Below are positions 17,241-36,535 of a DNA stretch of 39,355 bases, one piece after another (positions within the stretch are counted from its first letter, which is position 1; the number at the start of each line of letters is the position of its first letter). This DNA is from Flavobacteriales bacterium. GTDB taxonomy: Bacteria > Bacteroidota > Bacteroidia > Flavobacteriales_D > Sanyastnellaceae. The notes beneath the pieces were generated by a model. The model did no database searches. It saw only the letters and a program-made list of their open reading frames with translations, and was not told where the DNA came from. The stretch covers positions 1 through 39,355 of the forward strand of contig JAIXWP010000123.1 of the NCBI GenBank assembly GCA_027491215.1. The letters are read 5' to 3'. The position numbers and the translations under genes were made by a program.

Positions 17241-17250
17241 TGGCTTAGGC

Positions 17251-17277
17251 AAAAAAAATCCCGACAGGACGTCGGGA
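17251..17277 (-). terminator. Intrinsic terminator of the sigma/anti-sigma-like operon
   Basis: Stem TCCCGAC (17259-17265), loop AGGAC, stem GTCGGGA (17271-17277). On the minus strand the stem is followed by eight U (17258-17251). It lies 30 nt after the stop codon of the membrane-anchored PKD protein and separates that operon from the cargo gene downstream. Confidence 0.9.
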
Positions 17278-17306
17278 CTCTTTTTTGGTTTATTGGTTGG
17301 TTTTGG

Positions 17307-18551
17307 TTAAGGAAGAATCGTTACTATGCCGCTGAAGTATTTCTCTTCTTTGGTGGTGTCGTTATAAATGATCACAATCCATGGATACTGATCACCAGCT
17401 ACAGCAGTGGTGCCAGATGGAAGTGTTCCGTCCCATCCTTTGGATTTGTTTGTTGTTTCGTATATTGGTTTTTCACCATTGTAGATCGTCAATTTGAATT
17501 GAGACTTACCTTGTTTGAGTCCTTCAGGCATAAAGACATTTGTCTTTGGGCTGAATTTTTCAGGGGCCATCAAATTGTAGTCTTGGTTGATGTGAATATA
17601 CTTCACTTTGCTGTCAGAACATCCCCACTCATTAGAGACTTCAAGCGCAATCATTTGCTTGCCTCTATCTGTGTACGAGCGGATAGGGCTGATCACCTTT
17701 GATGTTGACCCGTCTCCAAATTTCCAGTTATAGCTTGTAGCGTTTTCGCTAGTGTTGATGATTTTTACTGTTGGTTCTTCACTTGCACTGTTAACGAAAT
17801 CCCATTCGAACTCAGCATTTGGAGCTGGGTGAATCGTGATAAGGTCGTTCATTACAGTAGTATTAATCTGACCATCTTTCTTCGAAGTGATAGAAAGCGA
17901 AACGTCGTAAACACCTGGCTTCACATACTTGTGCTTTGGATTTGGCTTATTAGAGAAGTTACCATCACCAAAGTTCCAAAGGTAGCTACCTTCATTTGGA
18001 CCGTTTACGGCGTTGAAATCAATTTCGCCGCCAGCGCAGGAAGTTGAAACGCTTGGTCTTACCGAAAGGGTAGTTGATGTTTTTGGTACAACAACCTCAT
18101 TCATTTGCGAGTCATTATCAGCAAGAATGTTTTCCGTTGGAATAGCTGAATCAGTAGAATTACTTGAAGGCGACACATTCGCTGCAAGTGGAGTAAGATT
18201 TACAGTGTTGCTTCTATTAGTAGTCGTGTTGTTAGAAGTAAGATTAGAATCAACAGTGCTGTTCTCGATAGAAGACGTTGAGTTAGATACTCTTGCGGTT
18301 GATTCAAATCGAGCGATACCGTGACCTTTCTTGGCATCTATTAGATTAAAGCTATACTTATATAGAATAAAAGAGCCGATAGCAGAGAAGAAACAAGCAG
18401 CTACAAGAGCGACCACCCAAGTATTGGCAGCAGCTCCGTTGCCATTCATTCGGTTTTCAAGATCGTTCCAGCTACTAGCTTCGAATGGTAATTCGTAGTG
18501 CTCTAGAGATTCTCGTACTTTATCCTCAAATGGGGTAAACTTATTACTCAT
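17307..18551 (-). CDS. Putative transmembrane anti-sigma factor with two PKD domains and degenerate T9SS type-B-like C-terminus
   Basis: A 414-residue single-pass membrane protein. Residues 1-43 are a charged cytoplasmic segment (FEDKVRESLEHYELPF, then SSWNDLENRM) like the short sigma-binding tails of Bacteroidota anti-sigma proteins. One TM helix lies at 44-66, with no cleavable signal peptide. A Ser/Thr/Asn-rich linker (about 80-165) leads to PKD domains at about 165-242 (FGDG 194-197) and 246-322 (FGDG 278-281). Residues 325-414 align with type B CTDs (FSP, LTIYNGEKPIYET, KGWDG, YFSGIVTILP) but lack NGDGxND, RWG and the final Arg. Its ATG overlaps the sigma gene by 8 nt. The anti-sigma role is inferred from gene order and topology; an uncharacterised membrane PKD protein is the alternative. 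Confidence 0.78.
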   Translation of the reverse strand: MSNKFTPFEDKVRESLEHYELPFEASSWNDLENRMNGNGAAANTWVVALVAACFFSAIGSFILYKYSFNLIDAKKGHGIARFESTARVSNSTSSIENSTVDSNLTSNNTTTNRSNTVNLTPLAANVSPSSNSTDSAIPTENILADNDSQMNEVVVPKTSTTLSVRPSVSTSCAGGEIDFNAVNGPNEGSYLWNFGDGNFSNKPNPKHKYVKPGVYDVSLSITSKKDGQINTTVMNDLITIHPAPNAEFEWDFVNSASEEPTVKIINTSENATSYNWKFGDGSTSKVISPIRSYTDRGKQMIALEVSNEWGCSDSKVKYIHINQDYNLMAPEKFSPKTNVFMPEGLKQGKSQFKLTIYNGEKPIYETTNKSKGWDGTLPSGTTAVAGDQYPWIVIIYNDTTKEEKYFSGIVTILP

Positions 18552-19119
18552 TCGCGTTGCCGTAGTTCTTTAAAAGTATCTTTTTCATATTGCGTTTGGC
18601 TTTCGCAAAATTGCTTTTGGAAGTCCCTACACTAACTCCTAATGCATCAGCAATATCCTGATGCGTGTAATTTTCAAAAACGTAAAGGTTGAAGACCGTT
18701 CTATAAGCCGGTGATAACTGTTGCATAGCTTCAATTATCTGATGAGGTTTGAAATCGTATTGGTCTTGTTCAGCCAATTCTTCTTCTTCGATTTCATCTT
18801 CCCATTCTTCCGCACTCATGGCGTCATTCATAAGTATGAAGTCATTTTTAGACTTTCGAAACCTATCGATCGAAAGATTAACCATGATCCTTCTTACCCA
18901 ACCTTCAAATGACCCCGACCCTGAATATCTTTCCATATTTTGGAAGACCTTTATAAAGCCTTCTTGGAGGACATCCATAGCCAAGTCTGAATCCCGTGTA
19001 TAACGAAGACAAACAGCCTTCATTTTTCCGTAAAGAAGCTTATAAACAGCCTGTTGCGACCTTCTGTCTCCTTGGAGACAGCCGTCAATTAGCTGTTTAA
19101 ATTGCTTGTCTTCACTCAC
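18544..19119 (-). CDS. ECF-type RNA polymerase sigma factor
   Basis: A sigma-70 family factor of about 190 residues with regions 2 and 4 only. Region 2 includes DLAMDVLQEGFIKVFQNM and WVRRIMVNLSIDRFR; region 4 includes LSPAYRTVFNLYVFENYTHQ and the helix-turn-helix DIADALGVSVGTSKSNF. The linker between them is strikingly acidic (EEWEDEIEEEELAEQD). No ATG is available: the GTG at 19119 is preferred over a TTG at 19128, which would add three residues. Its end overlaps the start of the membrane PKD protein gene by 8 nt (ATGAGTAA), the usual sigma/anti-sigma coupling. A good primary-sigma promoter lies upstream, so it is probably expressed constitutively and controlled post-translationally. Regulon unknown. 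Confidence 0.92.
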   Translation of the reverse strand: MSEDKQFKQLIDGCLQGDRRSQQAVYKLLYGKMKAVCLRYTRDSDLAMDVLQEGFIKVFQNMERYSGSGSFEGWVRRIMVNLSIDRFRKSKNDFILMNDAMSAEEWEDEIEEEELAEQDQYDFKPHQIIEAMQQLSPAYRTVFNLYVFENYTHQDIADALGVSVGTSKSNFAKAKRNMKKILLKNYGNANE

Positions 19120-19165
19120 GGAATTCAATGTTTAGACGGCACCCATTGAGAATGGTTGCCACTTA

Positions 19166-19266: not shown

Positions 19267-20457
19267 ATGAATAAAAGGGTCGTTGTCGGATTATCTGGAG
19301 GGGTCGATTCAAGCGTAGCCGCTTATCTTTTGCAAGAGCAAGGTTACGAAGTAGTTGGCATATTTATGCGCAATTGGCACGATGAATCTGTGACTATCAA
19401 TAATGAGTGCCCTTGGATTGATGATAGCAACGATGCAATGTTGGTCGCGGAACATCTCGGAATTCCTTTCCACGTGCTCGATTTGAGCAAAGAATACAAG
19501 GAAAGAATCGTGGACTATATGTTTCGCGAATACGAAATGGGGCGAACTCCTAATCCTGATGTACTCTGCAACAGGGAGATTAAATTTGATATTTTTCTAA
19601 AAGCCGCACAAAATCTCAAGGCTGACTTTGTAGCAACAGGCCATTATTGTCAGAAATCTGAATTTTCGGATGCAAAAGGCAAGGTGATTTACCAGCTTTT
19701 GGCAGGAGCTGATCCTAATAAGGATCAAAGTTATTTTTTATGTCAGCTTTCACAGGAACAGCTTTCACAGGCGCTATTTCCAATAGGCCATCTTCAAAAG
19801 CCTCAAGTAAGAGAGATTGCGAAAGAAATTGGTTTACCAACCGCTGAGAAAAAAGATAGCCAAGGGCTTTGCTTCATCGGAAAGGTAAAGCTTCCTACAT
19901 TTTTGCAGCAACAGCTTCAGCCAAAGGCTGGAGAAGTGGTAGAGGTTCCAGCTGATGGGGCTCTATTCACAATATATGATCGTCCCGTTTTGACCTTCGA
20001 AGATGCAGTTGTTGCCTCAAAACCTCATGTGTTCTCTAATGTGCCTACAAAGAAAGTTGGTACCCATAACGGGGCTCATTATTACACCATAGGTCAGCGC
20101 AAAGGTCTTGGTGTAGGGGGAAAGGCCGAGCCTTTATTCATAGTGCATACAGATACTACCGAAAATAAAGTATACACGGGTCAAGGAGAAAACCACCCAG
20201 CCTTATACAGAAGAGGGTTGTTTATTCCCAATTCTGATATTCATTGGATTAGGCCCGACTTGGAGCTTAAAGTAGGGGAAAGGGTTTGCTATAAATCTCG
20301 TATAAGATATCGACAAGAATTAGTTGGTGCTGAGTTGTTTAAGGTAGAAGAAGGGCTTCATGTCATTTTCGATGAGCCGCAGCGTGGAGTGGCCTCTGGT
20401 CAATTTGCAGCTTGGTACCTTGACAATGAATCAATAGGCAGTGGTGTCATTTCTTAA
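19267..20457 (+). CDS. mnmA: tRNA-specific 2-thiouridylase MnmA
   Basis: A 396-residue cytoplasmic enzyme that thiolates U34 of tRNA-Lys/Glu/Gln wobble positions using ATP and a sulfur relay. The PP-loop is [15 protein letters not shown] (about 8-22). The two catalytic cysteines sit in [12 protein letters not shown] (C101) and [11 protein letters not shown] (C202). The DQSYFL motif is present at 153-158, and the C-terminal beta-barrel has [12 protein letters not shown]. Between residues about 38 and 56 it carries the [10 protein letters not shown] segment in place of the shorter enterobacterial loop. It is divergent from the sigma gene, with a 147-nt gap holding both promoters. Identification is secure. 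Confidence 0.97.
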
Positions 20458-20544
20458 CAAAGTGCAACTTTTTTGCATACTTAGTTGTCTTTCAAGGAAA
20501 TTGAATATATTAGCATAGCCAAAATCGCCCTTAACCAACCCTAT

Positions 20545-23124
20545 ATGAAACCAAATTTACTCTTAAGAATAGCTGCACTGTTAGTGTTTGTTGTTCAATC
20601 GACAGTTGCTTTCTCTCAATTGCCTGGGGAAAGTTGTCAAACAGCTCAACCTCTCGCAATTCCTTCTATTAACACAGGACCTTTCGAGGATAATTGGTAC
20701 GTAATCGAGCCAACGGAAGCTGGACAATACTTGATTTCAATGTGTGCACTCAACACTTGCGATACACGCTTGTGGTTGTACTCTTCTTGTCCATTATCAG
20801 AAAATGATAATACTTTTTTGTTAGCGAGCAATGATGACGGTTGCGGCCTTCAATCACAGCTCAATGTTGCACTTTTACCCGGAAATACCTACCTCTTAAG
20901 AGTAGGAGATTTCGGAACATCTTGCGCTGGATCGGTAACTTTCCAAATTGAAAGCTATCAGGTTACTGCAGGTTGCACTAATCCTTTAGCTTCAAACTTT
21001 AATCCTAATGCTAACGTTGAGGATGGCTCTTGCATCATACCTGGATGTACCGATGCTTCAGCTCTAAACTACAGTTATCAAGCAACTCAGGATGACGGTT
21101 CTTGCGAGTATTGCAGCGGAACTGGTTCGGTAATCGGAGATTTTTACCTATGTACCTTCTCTAATGGATATCAATTGGAAGTTGAGATTTTCGACTCAAA
21201 TGGTAATTCTGTTGCTGAGCTTTTAGGTTCAAATGGCGCTATTCAACACGCTGATATTTGTCTTACACCTGGTGAATGCTACACTGCGGTGATGACAAAT
21301 AATACTGGCCCTCTAGGATGGTACAATGGTTATTTTTGGATCAATGGAAATGGTATTCAATATATAAATGATGCTCTTTCTGCTAATGCACAAACGGAGT
21401 CTGTTTTATTTAGCATTGACGGTACTTGCGGACCTATTTCAGGCTGTATGGACCCAAATGCTGACAATTATAACTCTGAAGCAGTATTGAGTGATGGCTC
21501 ATGTGTATATAGTGGCTGTACAGATCCAAATGCATTGAACTTTGATTATACTGCAACTTTTGATGATGGATCTTGCGAGTATTGCGCAATCAATGGAACA
21601 ATAGCTTCTCTTTATGTTTGCGCTTTCGGTAATGGCGAGCAATTAGAACTTCAGATCTTAGATGGTGACGGCAACGAGGTTATTTATGTCGACAACTTGA
21701 CAAGCGGAGCTATCGAATATTTCAATGTTTGTCTCTTACCCGGCACATGCTACACTGTTAATATGATCAATAATGCTGGACCTTACGGCTGGTATGGTGG
21801 ATACTATAACATAGGTGTAAATGGAGTGCAATTATCTGGTACTTCTCTTTCTTCAGGTCTTCAGTATGCATCTACTATCTTCTCGATTGACGGAACTTGC
21901 GGACCGGTAATTATACCAGGATGCACAGATCCAGGCGCTCTAAACTACAACTTAGAAGCTACAATTGAAGATGGATCATGCCAATATCCATATTATGGAT
22001 GTACAGACCCAGTTGCTTTGAACTATGATCCACTTGCTACTGAAAATACAGGCTGCATATATGCTGAAGATTGTTTCCAAAACATGGTAACATTTACTCT
22101 AGGAGGAAGCTATTGGTTGCAAGAAATGTCATTCGCTGTGTATAATGAAAATGGCGAAATGGTAGCTTACAGCGCTTCTGGTACTACTTATGTTTGCCTT
22201 GGTGACGGATGCTATACTGTAATGATGTTCGACTCTTTCGGAGATGGATGGGATAATGGAACGCTCGAGGTTACTGCAAACGGTCAGTGGGTGGCTTCAC
22301 TCAATTTGATCAACGGATTAGAAGGAACTGCTGCATTTGGATTGAACACAGAAGGTTGCGGTCCTGCAATCTATGGTTGTACAGACGCAACAGCATTCAA
22401 CTATAATTACTATGCGACTGAAGATGATGGCTCTTGTATCTATCAAAGCGATTGTACTGAAGAGTTCATTAGCGTAGTTCTTCAAACGCAAATCTGGGGT
22501 TCTGAGGTTGGATTCTCATTACTGAATGAAGACGGAGAAATCGTATTGTTCGGAGAGAATTTCGGAAGCTGGGAAACAAACGTAGTTTACGGATGTGTTC
22601 CAAGCGGATGTTACACACTTGTAATGGAAGACACATGGGGTGATGGTTGGAATGGTGCTTATTACGTTCTTTCTGGACCAACTTCTTATAGCGAAGGAAC
22701 ATTGGATTGGGGTTCTGAAGGTGCAAACCTTGTAGGTATCAACTCAATGTGTTCTGACGTTGAAGGATGCACAGATTCAACTGCGTTAAATTATAATTTC
22801 TACGCCTCATTTGATGATGGGTCATGCGTTTACAATGACAACGCTGGTTTTATCATGAATCCATCTTACGAGTTTGATGTGGCTCTTTATCCAAACCCAA
22901 CCGGAGGCAATATGGTACTTGAAGTAACAGACGTACAACAAGAAGAGGGCATCCGTATGAAGATCATCGGAATGGATGGCTCACTTGTTCGTGAAGAGTT
23001 CATCAAGACTACAGACACCGCTTACAGAACTAACCTTGATGTTTCGTTCTTGTCAGCAGGCTACTATTTCATGCAAATCCAAAATGGAGATCAAGTAAAG
23101 ACGCATTCATTCGTGAAGCAATAG
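20545..23124 (+). CDS. Secreted eight-repeat GCTDP protein with T9SS type A sorting domain
   Basis: An 859-residue T9SS cargo. The ATG at 20545 opens a signal peptide (LLLRIAALLVFVVQSTVAFSQ); a TTG 60 nt upstream is rejected. Residues about 30-140 form a pre-peptidase C-like beta-sandwich (CDTRLWLYSSC, LLRVGDFG). Eight copies of a short calcium/disulfide-type repeat follow (GCTDPxALNY ... DDGSC). They separate four ~100-residue beta-sandwich domains containing GCYTVMMFDSFGDGWDNG or GCYTLVMEDTWGDGWNG. The last ~75 residues are a type A CTD (ALYPNPTGGNMVLEV to the C-terminal HSFVKQ), unlike the type B cargo elsewhere in this window. Function is unknown but extracellular. A strong terminator follows. 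Confidence 0.9.
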   Translation: MKPNLLLRIAALLVFVVQSTVAFSQLPGESCQTAQPLAIPSINTGPFEDNWYVIEPTEAGQYLISMCALNTCDTRLWLYSSCPLSENDNTFLLASNDDGCGLQSQLNVALLPGNTYLLRVGDFGTSCAGSVTFQIESYQVTAGCTNPLASNFNPNANVEDGSCIIPGCTDASALNYSYQATQDDGSCEYCSGTGSVIGDFYLCTFSNGYQLEVEIFDSNGNSVAELLGSNGAIQHADICLTPGECYTAVMTNNTGPLGWYNGYFWINGNGIQYINDALSANAQTESVLFSIDGTCGPISGCMDPNADNYNSEAVLSDGSCVYSGCTDPNALNFDYTATFDDGSCEYCAINGTIASLYVCAFGNGEQLELQILDGDGNEVIYVDNLTSGAIEYFNVCLLPGTCYTVNMINNAGPYGWYGGYYNIGVNGVQLSGTSLSSGLQYASTIFSIDGTCGPVIIPGCTDPGALNYNLEATIEDGSCQYPYYGCTDPVALNYDPLATENTGCIYAEDCFQNMVTFTLGGSYWLQEMSFAVYNENGEMVAYSASGTTYVCLGDGCYTVMMFDSFGDGWDNGTLEVTANGQWVASLNLINGLEGTAAFGLNTEGCGPAIYGCTDATAFNYNYYATEDDGSCIYQSDCTEEFISVVLQTQIWGSEVGFSLLNEDGEIVLFGENFGSWETNVVYGCVPSGCYTLVMEDTWGDGWNGAYYVLSGPTSYSEGTLDWGSEGANLVGINSMCSDVEGCTDSTALNYNFYASFDDGSCVYNDNAGFIMNPSYEFDVALYPNPTGGNMVLEVTDVQQEEGIRMKIIGMDGSLVREEFIKTTDTAYRTNLDVSFLSAGYYFMQIQNGDQVKTHSFVKQ
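20971..22833 (+). repeat. Eight GCTDP...DDGSC coding repeats
   Basis: Copies begin with GCTNPLASNF, GCTDASALNY, GCMDPNADNY, GCTDPNALNF, GCTDPGALNY, GCTDPVALNY, GCTDATAFNY and GCTDSTALNY. All but the sixth end in DGSC; the sixth reads ENTGC. Copies 1-2 and 5-6 are back to back; the rest flank beta-sandwich domains. Confidence 0.88.
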
Positions 23125-30613: not shown

Positions 30614-33391
30614 TTATCGCAGAACCAAAACGCTGCCATAAATCTGAATGTTTTCAGTAATCGGAAGACCTTCCAAGTCATAAGCCGTAATCACAAAGCT
30701 ATATACACCGTCTTGGACATAGTAGTCATTTTTGCCTCCTGTCCAAGCTTGGTTGATATCGTTAGATTCATAAACGACATCTCCCCAACGGTCGAATATT
30801 GAGATATGAAAATCTCCAATTCCAGTTCCTATTATTTGCAGTACATCATTGACGCCATCACCGTTAGGTGTAATAGAATTGGGAACATATAAAAACGTAC
30901 ATTCCACAGTTACTGTAACATCATCTGTTGCGAAGCACCCGTTTTGCTCGGCTTGTGCTGTAAATGTTGTCGTCTGTGTAGGATTTGCTTGAACGTATGT
31001 CTCAGTAATTGTTTTTAAAAATGGTGAAGGCTGCCAAGATAAATTACCGTCCCCTGTGACCTCTAGGAATGCTCCATTTGAACAGTCACTATTAACGTCT
31101 TGCCCGGCATTTACATTAGGTAAACTGACGAATGTAAAATCGAAATCGTCTTGTCCTTCACATCCATTCTCATCAATGACATTAACGAAGTAGTTTCCGC
31201 TTGATGTGATTTCTAGAGTCTGTGTTGTTTCCCCCGTTGACCATTCAACGCTTGAATAATTTACATTCAATGAAAGAGTGGCTTCATTCCCTTCGCAGAC
31301 TGGACTGATAGGTCCTATAATCTCGGGTTCTATTCCTTCTCTAAAGTCTACATTCGTTGGAATACTGGTGCCTTCACAGCCTGCCGCATTAATAGCTCTT
31401 ACTGAGTATGCGCCATCAGTATTTGCTTGGAATGTAGTGCCTGTAGCTCCTACTATTGGTAGATTATCCTGCAGCCATTGGTAGTTAACGCCTCCCGAGG
31501 CTGTGAGTGTAAATGTGTCTTCACATGTTATCACATCACCATTGGGAAGGATCGTTGCATTTGGTACGGTGGCTGAGGTAATTGAAATGCCATAAGTGAC
31601 AACACAGTTATTAGCATCGGTAGCTTCAACGGTATAGTTGCCAACCGCAGCATTTTCTAGAACATTTGAGTTGGATCCAATTGGATTGGTGTTCATTTCC
31701 CAAGAGTAGCTGAAAAAATTGGCAGACGCAGTGAGCGTTGTAGTGGCTGTCGGACAAATGGACGTAATGTTATTATCTGCACTAATTGTTAATGCATCAA
31801 CATTCAGAATCGTAACAACAACAATATTGGAAAGAACCTCGCAGTTGTCTCCGTTACTGACTAGAATTTGATATTCGCCAGCAGTGTTTATGGTTGCAGA
31901 TGATGTGTTATTAGCGAATGGCACATCATCTTTAAGCCATGTGAAATCATCATAATTACCAGTAGCGGTTAAAGTAATTTCATTGCCTGGACAAAGATTT
32001 ATTGGACCCGCTGGAGAAAGCACAACAGAAGGCACGGGTGAGAATAGAATAGTAATGAGGCTTGAAGTTGTACTACAATTGTTTGACGTCACTTCAATAG
32101 AATAATCACCGGATAATGTAGCGTCAAAGCTGATACTTGTCGCACCAGGAATGGCGATATCATTGAGATACCATTGCACACCAGTTCCAGTATTTGCGGT
32201 TAGTGTTATTACTTCACCTTCACAGGCACCTAGTGATGCAGGGTTTGAAATAATCGCAATAGGTAAAGGATTTATTACAATAGAAATGGTATTTGATGTT
32301 GATTGACATGCGCCAGTGCCTGATGCAGCGTAATAGTCTCCAGATACGGTTGGTGTGAAAGAGGCTCCTGAAGCACCATTTATTGGGGATGTGCCTTGAT
32401 ACCATTGATAAACTCCAGGAACAGAGGTGTTCAACGTTACAGATTCATCTTCGCAAAATGTTGTTGGGCCATTCGCTGAAATTGTAAAAGGCACAGTATT
32501 GCTAACTGTAATGAAGTTGGTAAATATTTGAGAGAATGTTCCGCAATCGGTAGTCACAGTAAGGGTTACGTCAAAGACACCAGCTGTATTGTAACAAATA
32601 GAAGTAGGGTTTTCTAAAGCAGAATTTGGAGTTGCCGCTCCTTCAAAAGTCCATGTCCAGCCATTTACATCTCCAATGGAAAGATCAGAGAAATCAATGC
32701 ACTGGTCAGTGCAGATATTGGATGCACTGGCATCAATGTCAACAATTACTACATCACCGTTAGGGGCATGAGCAGAAATGTCGGCCCCGCATCGTATTTC
32801 CCATATTGGGCTTCCATCGCAAGCTCTTGCATAGGTGCATCCTTCTCCCGACGACCCGCTTACAAGAGGAAGTTGCTCAAATTGTGCGGATGCATTGGTC
32901 ACATTTGTTGAGATATTTCCGCAACCTCCATTTGAATCATTAATATTGAATGGAACGTTTTGTCCTCCTCCCCAAATAACACCATCTTGAATTACTCCAG
33001 TATCATCTATGAGTACGAGTTGTTCCCCACCATTGGTGAAAATAATAGTGGCAGTTAATGGAGAAGCACAATTGCATGTAGCTGGGAACAGATCCACAGT
33101 AACACTTGAGTTTACACTACCTACAACAAAGAAATCATTGGGCTGGATAACGGTTCCTGCTGGAAAGCGTATTACAAAATCATCGTCAGCAAGCGCCCAA
33201 CAGCTTATATCTATAGGTTCTGAGCAAGTGTTATAAAGCTCAATCCACTCTTCAGTGTTAGGTGCACTTTGGCCGTCAAAAGAAGAAGCACCGTTAATCA
33301 ATAATTCATTGATAACGATGCATTGAGCGTTAGTTTCAACACTAAATATTGAGACGAGGACCAGTATGGCACTCGCAATCTTCCTGACCAT
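30614..33391 (-). CDS. Secreted lamin-tail/PKD/Ig-like repeat protein with T9SS type B sorting domain
   Basis: A 925-residue T9SS cargo. Residues 1-22 are a signal peptide (AILVLVSIFSVETNAQ). A lamin-tail domain (LTD) spans about 23-165 (VINELLINGA, EEWIELYNTCSEPIDISCW). A PKD domain lies at about 207-300. Seven Ig-like units of 70-80 residues follow (about 303-830), each with an early Cys, a W in the core and a G-x-Y near the end. The type B CTD (about 834-925) shows ITPNGDGVNDVL, FDRWGD and ends SVLVLR. No catalytic motif is seen. It is monocistronic, and a TACTTTTG element lies 16 nt upstream. Adhesin or surface matrix protein is inferred. Confidence 0.91.
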   Translation of the reverse strand: MVRKIASAILVLVSIFSVETNAQCIVINELLINGASSFDGQSAPNTEEWIELYNTCSEPIDISCWALADDDFVIRFPAGTVIQPNDFFVVGSVNSSVTVDLFPATCNCASPLTATIIFTNGGEQLVLIDDTGVIQDGVIWGGGQNVPFNINDSNGGCGNISTNVTNASAQFEQLPLVSGSSGEGCTYARACDGSPIWEIRCGADISAHAPNGDVVIVDIDASASNICTDQCIDFSDLSIGDVNGWTWTFEGAATPNSALENPTSICYNTAGVFDVTLTVTTDCGTFSQIFTNFITVSNTVPFTISANGPTTFCEDESVTLNTSVPGVYQWYQGTSPINGASGASFTPTVSGDYYAASGTGACQSTSNTISIVINPLPIAIISNPASLGACEGEVITLTANTGTGVQWYLNDIAIPGATSISFDATLSGDYSIEVTSNNCSTTSSLITILFSPVPSVVLSPAGPINLCPGNEITLTATGNYDDFTWLKDDVPFANNTSSATINTAGEYQILVSNGDNCEVLSNIVVVTILNVDALTISADNNITSICPTATTTLTASANFFSYSWEMNTNPIGSNSNVLENAAVGNYTVEATDANNCVVTYGISITSATVPNATILPNGDVITCEDTFTLTASGGVNYQWLQDNLPIVGATGTTFQANTDGAYSVRAINAAGCEGTSIPTNVDFREGIEPEIIGPISPVCEGNEATLSLNVNYSSVEWSTGETTQTLEITSSGNYFVNVIDENGCEGQDDFDFTFVSLPNVNAGQDVNSDCSNGAFLEVTGDGNLSWQPSPFLKTITETYVQANPTQTTTFTAQAEQNGCFATDDVTVTVECTFLYVPNSITPNGDGVNDVLQIIGTGIGDFHISIFDRWGDVVYESNDINQAWTGGKNDYYVQDGVYSFVITAYDLEGLPITENIQIYGSVLVLR
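30901..32482 (-). repeat. Seven Ig-like ~75-residue coding repeats in the LTD cargo protein
   Basis: Units carry a Cys soon after the start (TFCEDESVTL, GACEGEVITL, NLCPGNEITL, SICPTATTTL and so on), a central Trp (YQWYQG, VQWYLN, FTWLKD, YSWEMN) and a G-x-Y turn. Boundaries are approximate. Confidence 0.7.
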
Positions 33392-35086: not shown

Positions 35087-36535
35087 ATGATGAAAAAGAA
35101 TTTAATGCCTTTTGTTGCCGCTTTTGTCGGCGGAGCCGTTGCTCTCGGCGCCTACTCACTCATTACAAAGAGCACGGCTAGTCCTTTTACCACAAATCAA
35201 AATTCAATTCCTGTTGTAACCGCAGGATATGCGGCACTTCCAGACGGAACCCTCGATTTTACGGGAGCGGCTGAACGAACAGTCAATGCAGTTGTCCACG
35301 TGAAGACTCAGTCGAAAGTTCAAAATGTTTACAATCCTTGGGCAGATTTTTTCGGTTACAATCAACAACCACAAGTACAAATGTCAAGCGGCAGCGGAGT
35401 TATAATATCGGCTGACGGCTACATCATCACCAATAATCACGTAGTAGAGGGAGCGGAGAAACTCACAGTTACTCTCAATAATAATAAGAATTATGAAGCG
35501 AAAGTGATTGGACGTGATCCCAGCACTGATATAGCAGTTATCAAAATTGACGAAAAAAATCTGCCACTTGCTCAATGGGGAAACAGTGACGATGTCCGTG
35601 TTGGACAGTGGGTTCTCGCTGTTGGTAACCCATTTGAACTTACATCAACAGTTACGGCTGGTATTGTAAGCGCAAAAGCCCGTAATATTAATCTTCTTTC
35701 TGAGCAAGCACGCTCGGAAGAGGTTTTTCCAGTAGAGTCATTTATTCAAACAGATGCTGCTGTTAACCCAGGAAATAGCGGTGGTGCGCTGGTTAATGTG
35801 CGTGGAGAGCTCATTGGTATCAATACTGCCATTGCATCACGAACTGGAGCTTATGCTGGTTATTCATTTGCTGTTCCAACCACAATCGCTAAGAAAGTCG
35901 CTGAAGACTTGATTGAATTTGGAAATGTTCAGCGTGCTTTTATTGGCGTTAGAATTAGCGATGTGACAGAAGAGCAAGCAAAAGAAAAGGGTTTGCCAGA
36001 GGTAGCTGGTGTATATGTGAATGCATTGACTGAAGGCACAAGTGATAATGGAATGAGAGAAGGTGATGTAATTCTAAAAGTTGCCGGTGTTGCTGTAAAG
36101 AACATTCCTCAACTACAAGAGCAAGTGATTAAATATCGCCCGGGGAATAAGGTTAATGTCACCGTTTGGAGAGGAGGAAAGCTGCAAGAAGTTCAAGTGA
36201 CAATGAAAAATAGAGATGGTAAAGCGGAGCTAGAAGATTTCACAGCAGCAGCAGGTATTTCGATGAATAGCCTTGGTGCTCAGTTTACACTTCCTTCTGC
36301 TTCTGAGAAAGATGCTTTGAAAATCACAGGCGGAGCTAAGGTGGAGACTATTACACCTGGTAAATTAAAGTCAATCGGGATTCAAAGAGGGTTTATCATC
36401 ACGAAAGTAGATGGTCAGAAAATTGAGAGTCCGGAGCAATTGGAGTCGGCACTTCAGGGAAAGTCGGGAAATGTTCTTATTGAAGGAGTTTATACAAATG
36501 GAACGAAGGCTTATTATGGTTTTTCACTGAATTAA
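35087..36535 (+). CDS. DegP/DegQ-type periplasmic serine endoprotease (HtrA)
   Basis: A 482-residue S1C protease/chaperone for misfolded envelope proteins. An N-terminal membrane/export segment (about 7-25) is followed by the trypsin-like domain with triad H118 (TNNHVV), D148 (STDIAVIKI) and S231 (GNSGGALVN). A first PDZ domain (about 283-375, AFIGVRISDVTEEQA) and a shorter second PDZ (about 420-475) follow, as in DegP/DegQ-type enzymes. Start is the first of two adjacent Met codons. With at least five large T9SS cargo genes nearby, quality control of secreted proteins is a plausible workload, though gene context gives no direct link. A strong hairpin terminator follows. Confidence 0.94.
   Translation: MMKKNLMPFVAAFVGGAVALGAYSLITKSTASPFTTNQNSIPVVTAGYAALPDGTLDFTGAAERTVNAVVHVKTQSKVQNVYNPWADFFGYNQQPQVQMSSGSGVIISADGYIITNNHVVEGAEKLTVTLNNNKNYEAKVIGRDPSTDIAVIKIDEKNLPLAQWGNSDDVRVGQWVLAVGNPFELTSTVTAGIVSAKARNINLLSEQARSEEVFPVESFIQTDAAVNPGNSGGALVNVRGELIGINTAIASRTGAYAGYSFAVPTTIAKKVAEDLIEFGNVQRAFIGVRISDVTEEQAKEKGLPEVAGVYVNALTEGTSDNGMREGDVILKVAGVAVKNIPQLQEQVIKYRPGNKVNVTVWRGGKLQEVQVTMKNRDGKAELEDFTAAAGISMNSLGAQFTLPSASEKDALKITGGAKVETITPGKLKSIGIQRGFIITKVDGQKIESPEQLESALQGKSGNVLIEGVYTNGTKAYYGFSLN

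Follow-up and report, generated by a model that had tools for sequence, protein, structure and literature searches.

What does a membrane protein sense if its gene overlaps that of a sigma factor, its N-terminus resembles an anti-sigma domain and its C-terminus resembles an export tag? The question is raised by a 39,355-nt stretch of DNA (contig JAIXWP010000123.1 of assembly GCA_027491215.1; hereafter the window) from a Flavobacteriales bacterium of the family Sanyastnellaceae, in which a gene for an extracytoplasmic function (ECF) sigma factor and a membrane-protein gene are followed by large genes for cargo of the type IX secretion system (T9SS). We report that the short tail of the membrane protein very likely, as judged from sequence and gene order, sequesters the sigma factor, and that periplasmic sensing through its outer domains is likely. 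To the favoured explanation as a whole we give about an even chance: an autoregulated ECF sigma factor would be held by an anti-sigma factor of the Dma kind, in which a decayed type B C-terminal domain (CTD) serves as bait on the export route and brings about release of the sigma factor.

The sigma gene, its membrane-protein partner and the tail that marks such pairs

The sigma open reading frame (ORF; 18544-19128, minus strand) has 194 codons in its longest reading, the conserved start probably being the GTG at 19119, and the Pfam scan places sigma-70 regions 2 and 4 in one short protein, as is characteristic of ECF sigma factors. The membrane-protein gene is the ORF at 17307-18551 on the same strand (414 aa). 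An earlier note on this DNA, made from the sequence alone, had described an 8-nt overlap between an ECF sigma gene and the gene of a protein with a tail (residues 1-43), one transmembrane (TM) helix, a linker, two PKD domains and a type-B-CTD-like end, and had likened the two genes to the overlapping sigma/anti-sigma pairs that are common in Bacteroidota. The overlap is borne out by the ORF coordinates and Pfam, the architecture by Pfam, AlphaFold2 and hhalign, and the neighbourhood by a gene-neighbourhood check, in which a sigma homologue lies directly upstream and on the same strand in all 48 orthologous loci; the pairing in the window is thus not chance.

In the AlphaFold2 model of the full-length protein, helices span residues 7-17, 25-36 and 44-68 (the TM helix), the predicted local distance difference test score (pLDDT) is below 50 over residues 78-158, and residues 163-412 form a beta-rich part with ten-residue mean pLDDT of 80-97; the tether measures about 80-95 residues. 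The best structural matches of this model are PKD-rich surface proteins, the first being the Aureispira grappling-hook protein. By eye no separate signal peptide was seen, and a cytoplasmic-type tail and the TM helix occupy its position (by eye and hydropathy). Neither a FecR nor a zinc-finger anti-sigma Pfam domain was matched in the membrane protein up to E 1, no Pfam model up to that value matches the tail, and PADLOC gave no match.

The homologue search covered 60 genomes, the own one included, and gave PKD-driven matches everywhere. As orthologous loci we chose the 48 in which the best match lies inside an ORF of roughly the expected length, and counts of 49 add the own locus; 11 of the 59 relatives fall outside the 48 loci, seven of them (G032, G044, G046, G048, G053, G058 and G059) with a match to the tail profile. 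The sigma and membrane-protein genes overlap by 4 to 26 nt where they overlap (gene starts were reassigned in eight of the 48 loci for this count) and are otherwise 0-22 nt apart. A cargo-like ORF, defined as matching the window cargo or having at least 700 aa, is next downstream in 44 of the 46 evaluable loci (G010 and G011 end too soon to be evaluated). A single-sequence scan of genome contigs returned no relative, and the full-length profile A2, run on 395 phylum genomes with at most four candidates scored per genome, was overrun with PKD proteins and tells little about distribution.

The tail is more informative. Its motif is roughly F(E/D)xxI+xxLexxExPYdxxxWxxLexxL, with Trp28 invariant in the 28 rows of alignment A3 and the 29 rows of alignment A8; of the 49 orthologues, 46 have Trp and three have Phe at this position. 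Within the order, the 45-position profile A3 finds a match in 169 of the 249 genomes and in 54 of the 64 genera, and these are lower bounds because some diverged orthologue tails (e.g. G004, G006, G011, G012, G015, G023, G025 and G031) escape the profile. Matches among named genomes include Flavobacteriales, Crocinitomicaceae, Cryomorphaceae and Vicingaceae, among others; a sigma gene is followed at once by the tail-bearing gene in 21 of 80 named loci, and the cultured Cryomorpha ignava QSSC 1-22 has the pair (locus L254), which provides an organism in which it can be tested.

When the tail-only profile was run over 296 phylum genomes, 25 matches were obtained at E up to 1e-3, three of them from the own order, and 24 of the 25 sit right behind a sigma-profile gene (E 1e-44 or better; one of the 24 has an over-long start, giving a gap of -149). 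With the wider alignment A8, a second round matched 77 of the 296 sampled genomes, and for the next 40 places by E-value without an earlier locus the figure is 38 of 40, the exceptions being L351 and L353 (a 55-residue ORF). Such adjacency is hardly chance, since the own genome has only 19 places that match Sigma70_r4_2 at E up to 0.01. That the two neighbours are functionally unpaired, or that an ordinary surface protein has such an N-terminus by chance, is therefore very improbable in view of the adjacency in 48/48, 24/25 and 38/40 places, the conserved gene overlap and the Trp in 46 of 49 tails. The sole first-round match for which no adjoining sigma gene was found, L144, is a short protein with a DUF3144 domain, in which the N-terminus is tail-like and no clear TM helix is seen; it may bind sigma factors on its own, or its tail match may be due to chance.

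What follows the TM helix varies. Among 22 scanned proteins (of the 23 first-round proteins outside the own family), 13 match outer-membrane barrel models in Pfam at E up to 0.05, some of them below the curated cut-off. The remaining nine are L127 (same order, with a CTD-like end by eye), L144 and seven proteins of 225-317 aa that lack a recognised outer domain and give weak matches such as DUF3379 and RskA_C. The 40 second-round proteins comprise 25 of less than 300 aa (including the 55-residue ORF) and 15 of at least 380 aa. Tail-TM proteins of about 240-285 aa directly behind ECF sigma genes (L340, L343-L350, L356, L357 and similar) make up a third architecture. Moreover, tandem tail copies are present in orthologues G045 (L075) and G055 (L076) and, by eye, in the barrel relatives L128 and L129, and adjacent double tail matches turned up in further genomes in the order-wide search; two or more predicted tails before the TM helix look as if they could bind several sigma molecules.

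In the published Dma anti-sigma factors of Bacteroides thetaiotaomicron, an anti-sigma domain at the N-terminus is followed by a TM helix, a long disordered tether and, at the C-terminus, a barrel; they are dual membrane-spanning, their domains extending from the cytosol out to the outer membrane, and their genes adjoin ECF21 sigma genes, with Dma3 bearing a sigma domain at its own N-terminus (PMC13088901). The window protein is like Dma1-3 in its single TM helix after the tail, long disordered tether, adjacent ECF sigma gene and occurrence in Bacteroidota, and unlike them in that the barrel is replaced by PKD-PKD-CTD-like domains and that the neighbours are type B cargo genes. Its tail is homologous to the tails of sigma-adjacent barrel proteins, while its likeness to the named Dma proteins is one of layout. 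The system is a variant of the Dma kind with PKD-PKD-CTD in place of the barrel. The earlier view that no such architecture had been described fails for tail, TM helix and tether with an outer-membrane end, which is the Dma layout (PMC13088901).

The sigma factor and the tail were also folded as one chain. This fused model has a mean pLDDT of 87.9 and tail helices at residues 196-206 and 214-226; its structure matches lie in the sigma part (model residues 1-192, which hardly reach the tail; VIA-align, best 50 rows), and CnrH is among the fold matches of that part. Class II anti-sigma factors of the CnrY type have a short tail on a one-TM protein. The window protein resembles them in both respects, and its tail has no sequence match among solved chains (best E 0.49).

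A C-terminal domain related to the type B tags of neighbouring cargo

The three giant type B cargo genes that had been proposed on the same strand each exceed the curated cut-offs of both CHU_C and TIGR04131 (Table 1). Aligned with the CTDs of these three proteins, the CTD-like domains of 20 orthologues of the membrane protein give a probability of 99.2, an E-value of 3.5e-19 and 89 columns (hhalign). In the window membrane protein itself CHU_C scores only 16.3 bits (residues 338-411) against a cut-off of 27, and TIGR04131 has no match up to E 1.

This divergence has a pattern, which became visible against a cargo comparison set. This set has 64 ORFs that lie downstream of the pairs on the same strand, are complete and encode at least 700 aa; the three window genes are among them. 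The RWG motif is present in 57 of the 64 cargo proteins (with a variant in five further cargo ends) and in none of the 49 CTD-like domains; a terminal K or R is found in 62 of 64 cargo proteins, the two without it being G022, which runs into unknown bases, and G049, which has no CTD-like end, and in only 16 of 49 CTD-like proteins. The window protein has neither feature. Conversely, F(M/L/I)P occurs in 45 of 49 CTD-like proteins as against 12 of 64 cargo proteins, and Pro is the last residue in 25 of the 49. Two residues of the core of the CTD-like domain, W373 and G375, are invariant. In Flavobacterium johnsoniae each conserved type B motif is required to secrete a SprB CTD fusion (PMC12618676), and RWG is presumably among them. 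Since the cargo motifs have been lost, the CTD-like domain, as far as its sequence goes, is most readily understood as a mimic that has been kept and not as a functional export signal.

A second pair in the same genome has a similar layout. On contig C97 (L096:14750-16358) there is again an 8-nt overlap, here between a sigma gene and the gene of a 358-aa tail-TM-PKD-CHU_C protein, the CHU_C score of which (44.1 bits) passes the cut-off, and which ends in Glu and lacks RWG. This pair is flanked by two CHU_C genes (following cargo 76.8 bits, preceding ORF 36 bits; cut-off 27). The combination of tail and PKD-CTD has thus arisen or been kept twice beside type B cargo. The earlier note had suggested that the periplasmic part mimics cargo: the relatedness to type B CTDs is upheld by hhalign and by the CHU_C score of the paralogue, and a mimic fits the motif loss. 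The genome has 14 PorP/SprF-family matches, none of them on the window contig or on C97, and the cargo beside both pairs is accordingly without a carrier gene on the same contig.

Compared with type B cargo such as SprB, the window protein is alike in its PKD domains and homologous C-terminal domain and unlike in that it has a tail and TM helix in place of a signal peptide, lacks RWG and belongs to a family in which the terminal K/R is mostly lost. Could its PKD-CTD end nevertheless be truly exported via the T9SS, the tail staying in the cytoplasm, so that the protein spans both membranes and a carrier-bound CTD replaces the Dma barrel? Dma members do reach from the outer membrane to the cytosol (PMC13088901) and type B substrates remain carrier-bound (PMC12635249), and the length of the tether and the 16 orthologues that end in K or R (G049, e.g., keeps an NGDG motif) also agree with such export; against these stand the complete absence of RWG, the 33 of 49 proteins without terminal K/R, the window protein included, and the lack of a separate signal peptide by eye, and we consider export of this kind improbable.

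The window has two other genes for T9SS cargo: the one at 20485-23124 encodes a type A (Por_Secre_tail) protein, and the one at 30614-33391 encodes the fourth of the CHU_C proteins, which also has a lamin-tail domain.

Promoter and probable regulon

An ECF-type promoter-like site precedes the sigma gene (Table 1). The strict pattern is found with a GCAAC-CGTC distance of 16 nt in 32 loci and of 15 nt in four, and with the start codon placed elsewhere at least one more locus (G002) shows the site. In 12 relatives the pattern gives 26 sites as compared with eight for the reversed control; 11 are before the sigma gene, six before a gene for a DUF5684 protein of 140-160 aa, four inside response-regulator ORFs (by eye) and five unassigned. 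The sites inside response-regulator-like ORFs (L187, L189, L191 and L199), which come from several genera, are most likely a coding coincidence. The own genome has four sites (reversed control, two): before the sigma gene, before a DUF5684 gene (55.8 bits; C22:26882-26907) and two on C45, one within an ORF and the other without a convincing gene behind it. Altogether, DUF5684 membrane-protein genes carry the promoter in seven of 13 genomes (L177, L181, L183, L193, L202, L204 and L206). Scans allowing one mismatch gave no excess over the reversed control (12 vs 26; 17 vs 44), and six of the eight own-genome sites of this kind fall inside ORFs.

These conserved places indicate that the sigma factor, by the sequence of its predicted sites, probably controls its own operon and the DUF5684 gene; the neighbouring cargo does not look like the regulon. 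Moreover, a terminator-like hairpin follows the membrane-protein gene, so that the cargo genes are not evidently in one operon with the pair. Such a hairpin is present after the membrane-protein gene in 26 of 48 loci (a raw count, unshuffled), and the region has five terminator-like sites as compared with 2.2 +/- 1.4 in shuffles. On the other side of the pair, upstream of the sigma gene, lies a divergent gene (19267-20457) which we take to be mnmA.

Table 1. Features of the sigma/anti-sigma locus and adjoining cargo genes, in window coordinates
Feature	Coordinates	Strand	Evidence
ECF-type promoter-like site GGCAACC-N15-CGTC before sigma gene	19135..19160	-	conserved in 36/49 loci, own included; exact match
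ECF sigma factor gene	18544..19119	-	Pfam Sigma70_r2 58.3 bits, Sigma70_r4_2 54.8 bits
Overlap of sigma stop and membrane-protein start, 8 nt	18544..18551	-	ORF coordinates; overlap in 34/48 orthologous loci
N-terminal tail, residues 1-43, putative anti-sigma domain	18423..18551	-	alignments, tail-only profile, modelled helices 7-17 and 25-36
Single TM helix, residues 44-68	18348..18422	-	hydropathy maximum 45-63; model helix 44-68
Low-complexity, mostly disordered tether, residues 69-162	18066..18347	-	pLDDT <50 at 78-158; poorly conserved
Two PKD domains, residues about 163-324	17580..18065	-	PKD_4 81 bits in two stretches; beta-rich, confident in model
Type-B-CTD-like C-terminal domain, residues about 325-414, ends in Pro	17310..17579	-	hhalign to cargo CTDs; CHU_C sub-threshold
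Terminator-like hairpin and T run after membrane-protein gene	17248..17279	-	same stem has a T run on the plus strand too
Type B cargo gene 1, 1155 aa	13702..17169	-	CHU_C 48.3 bits; TIGR04131 39.4 bits
Type B cargo gene 2, 1075 aa	10352..13579	-	CHU_C 59.3 bits; TIGR04131 46.8 bits
Type B cargo gene 3, 1147 aa	6840..10283	-	CHU_C 55 bits; TIGR04131 42.8 bits

What the pair may sense

In the favoured explanation the two-helix cytoplasmic tail would hold the sigma factor at the inner membrane, as its homology and conserved adjacency suggest, and the TM helix and tether would carry the PKD domains and the degenerate CTD into the periplasm, possibly as far as the outer membrane. There the degenerate CTD would act as bait: without being exported itself, it would engage some part of the type B route, for instance a PorP/SprF-like carrier, or compete with cargo for this part. 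A change in this engagement would lead to release or degradation of the tail, and the freed sigma factor would transcribe its own operon and the DUF5684 membrane-protein gene from promoters of the GGCAACC-N15-CGTC type, the sites of which are conserved and probably in use. That type IX export is the signal sensed is possible, at about one chance in three. A more specific version, which we offer tentatively and regard as rather unlikely in its full form, is that a Dma-like anti-sigma factor swapped its barrel for a decayed type B tag, so that the carrier or translocon becomes the sensor head and cargo occupancy decides whether the sigma factor is held. Separately, the window encodes an HtrA/DegP-like protease (trypsin-like and PDZ domains; 35087-36535), 16 kb away, which is a candidate anti-sigma cleaver.

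Several observations weigh against the favoured explanation. With RWG gone, the domain may no longer bind a carrier at all, which is an argument against docking; the fused sigma-tail model has a predicted template modelling score of only 0.47 despite its confident tail helices (ten-residue means 74-89); and loci G041 and G042 have no cargo beside the pair. The promoter was not found before the window cargo genes and, in loose form, is present in just four of 44 cargo upstream regions, and the idea that the sigma factor drives the adjacent cargo is accordingly unsupported by the promoter search. Likewise, no T9SS genes were recognised behind the own-genome promoter sites (by eye, the domain scan being of the DUF5684 ORF only).

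In a different account the PKD-CTD anti-sigma factor responds to another envelope cue (a glycan, an ion, mechanical strain or the surface layer), the CTD being an inherited Ig-like module and the T9SS uninvolved. The dominance of PKD-type surface proteins among structural and sequence matches, the decayed CTD motifs, promoter targets that are the operon itself and DUF5684 rather than recognised T9SS genes, and the barrels or short outer parts of other tail relatives all agree with it. It leaves the retention of W373 and G375 in the core of the CTD-like domain to be explained, as well as the presence of CTD-bearing anti-sigma genes in two distinct pairs of this genome, each of which adjoins type B cargo; we regard it as a real possibility, somewhat short of an even one.

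How does the bait explanation relate to what is known of T9SS control? The tuning of gene expression to T9SS state in Bacteroidota is known mainly from PorXY-SigP. In the Porphyromonas gingivalis PorA/PorXY-SigP system T9SS genes are under an ECF sigma factor, and a protein with a CTD, PorA, acts upstream of this factor. PorA lies at the surface and works via a two-component system; direct contact between PorA and PorY was not detected (PMC7712824). Here, unlike in that system, it is the putative anti-sigma factor itself that bears the CTD-like domain. SprC was considered as a candidate identity of the membrane protein and rejected, by comparison of gene order only: the F. johnsoniae operon has the order remFG-sprCDBF, without a sigma gene in the description available (PMC9723704). 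No anti-sigma factor with a T9SS CTD was recognised in the open papers of PubMed Central, among the matches listed.

Sigma partners can be told by their 45-residue tail, a compact marker that is joined to outer parts of at least three kinds (barrel, PKD-CTD and short unassigned), and, as this tail has no Pfam match, many uncharacterised sigma partners may become recognisable through it. The data suggest a cue from some stage of protein export or of cell-surface assembly, which these bacteria would sense and answer by gene expression. If the favoured explanation is true, a sigma/anti-sigma pair with an outer part derived from an export tag would be a direct feedback channel with a testable bait, and surface-protein export would be coupled to transcription within one polypeptide.

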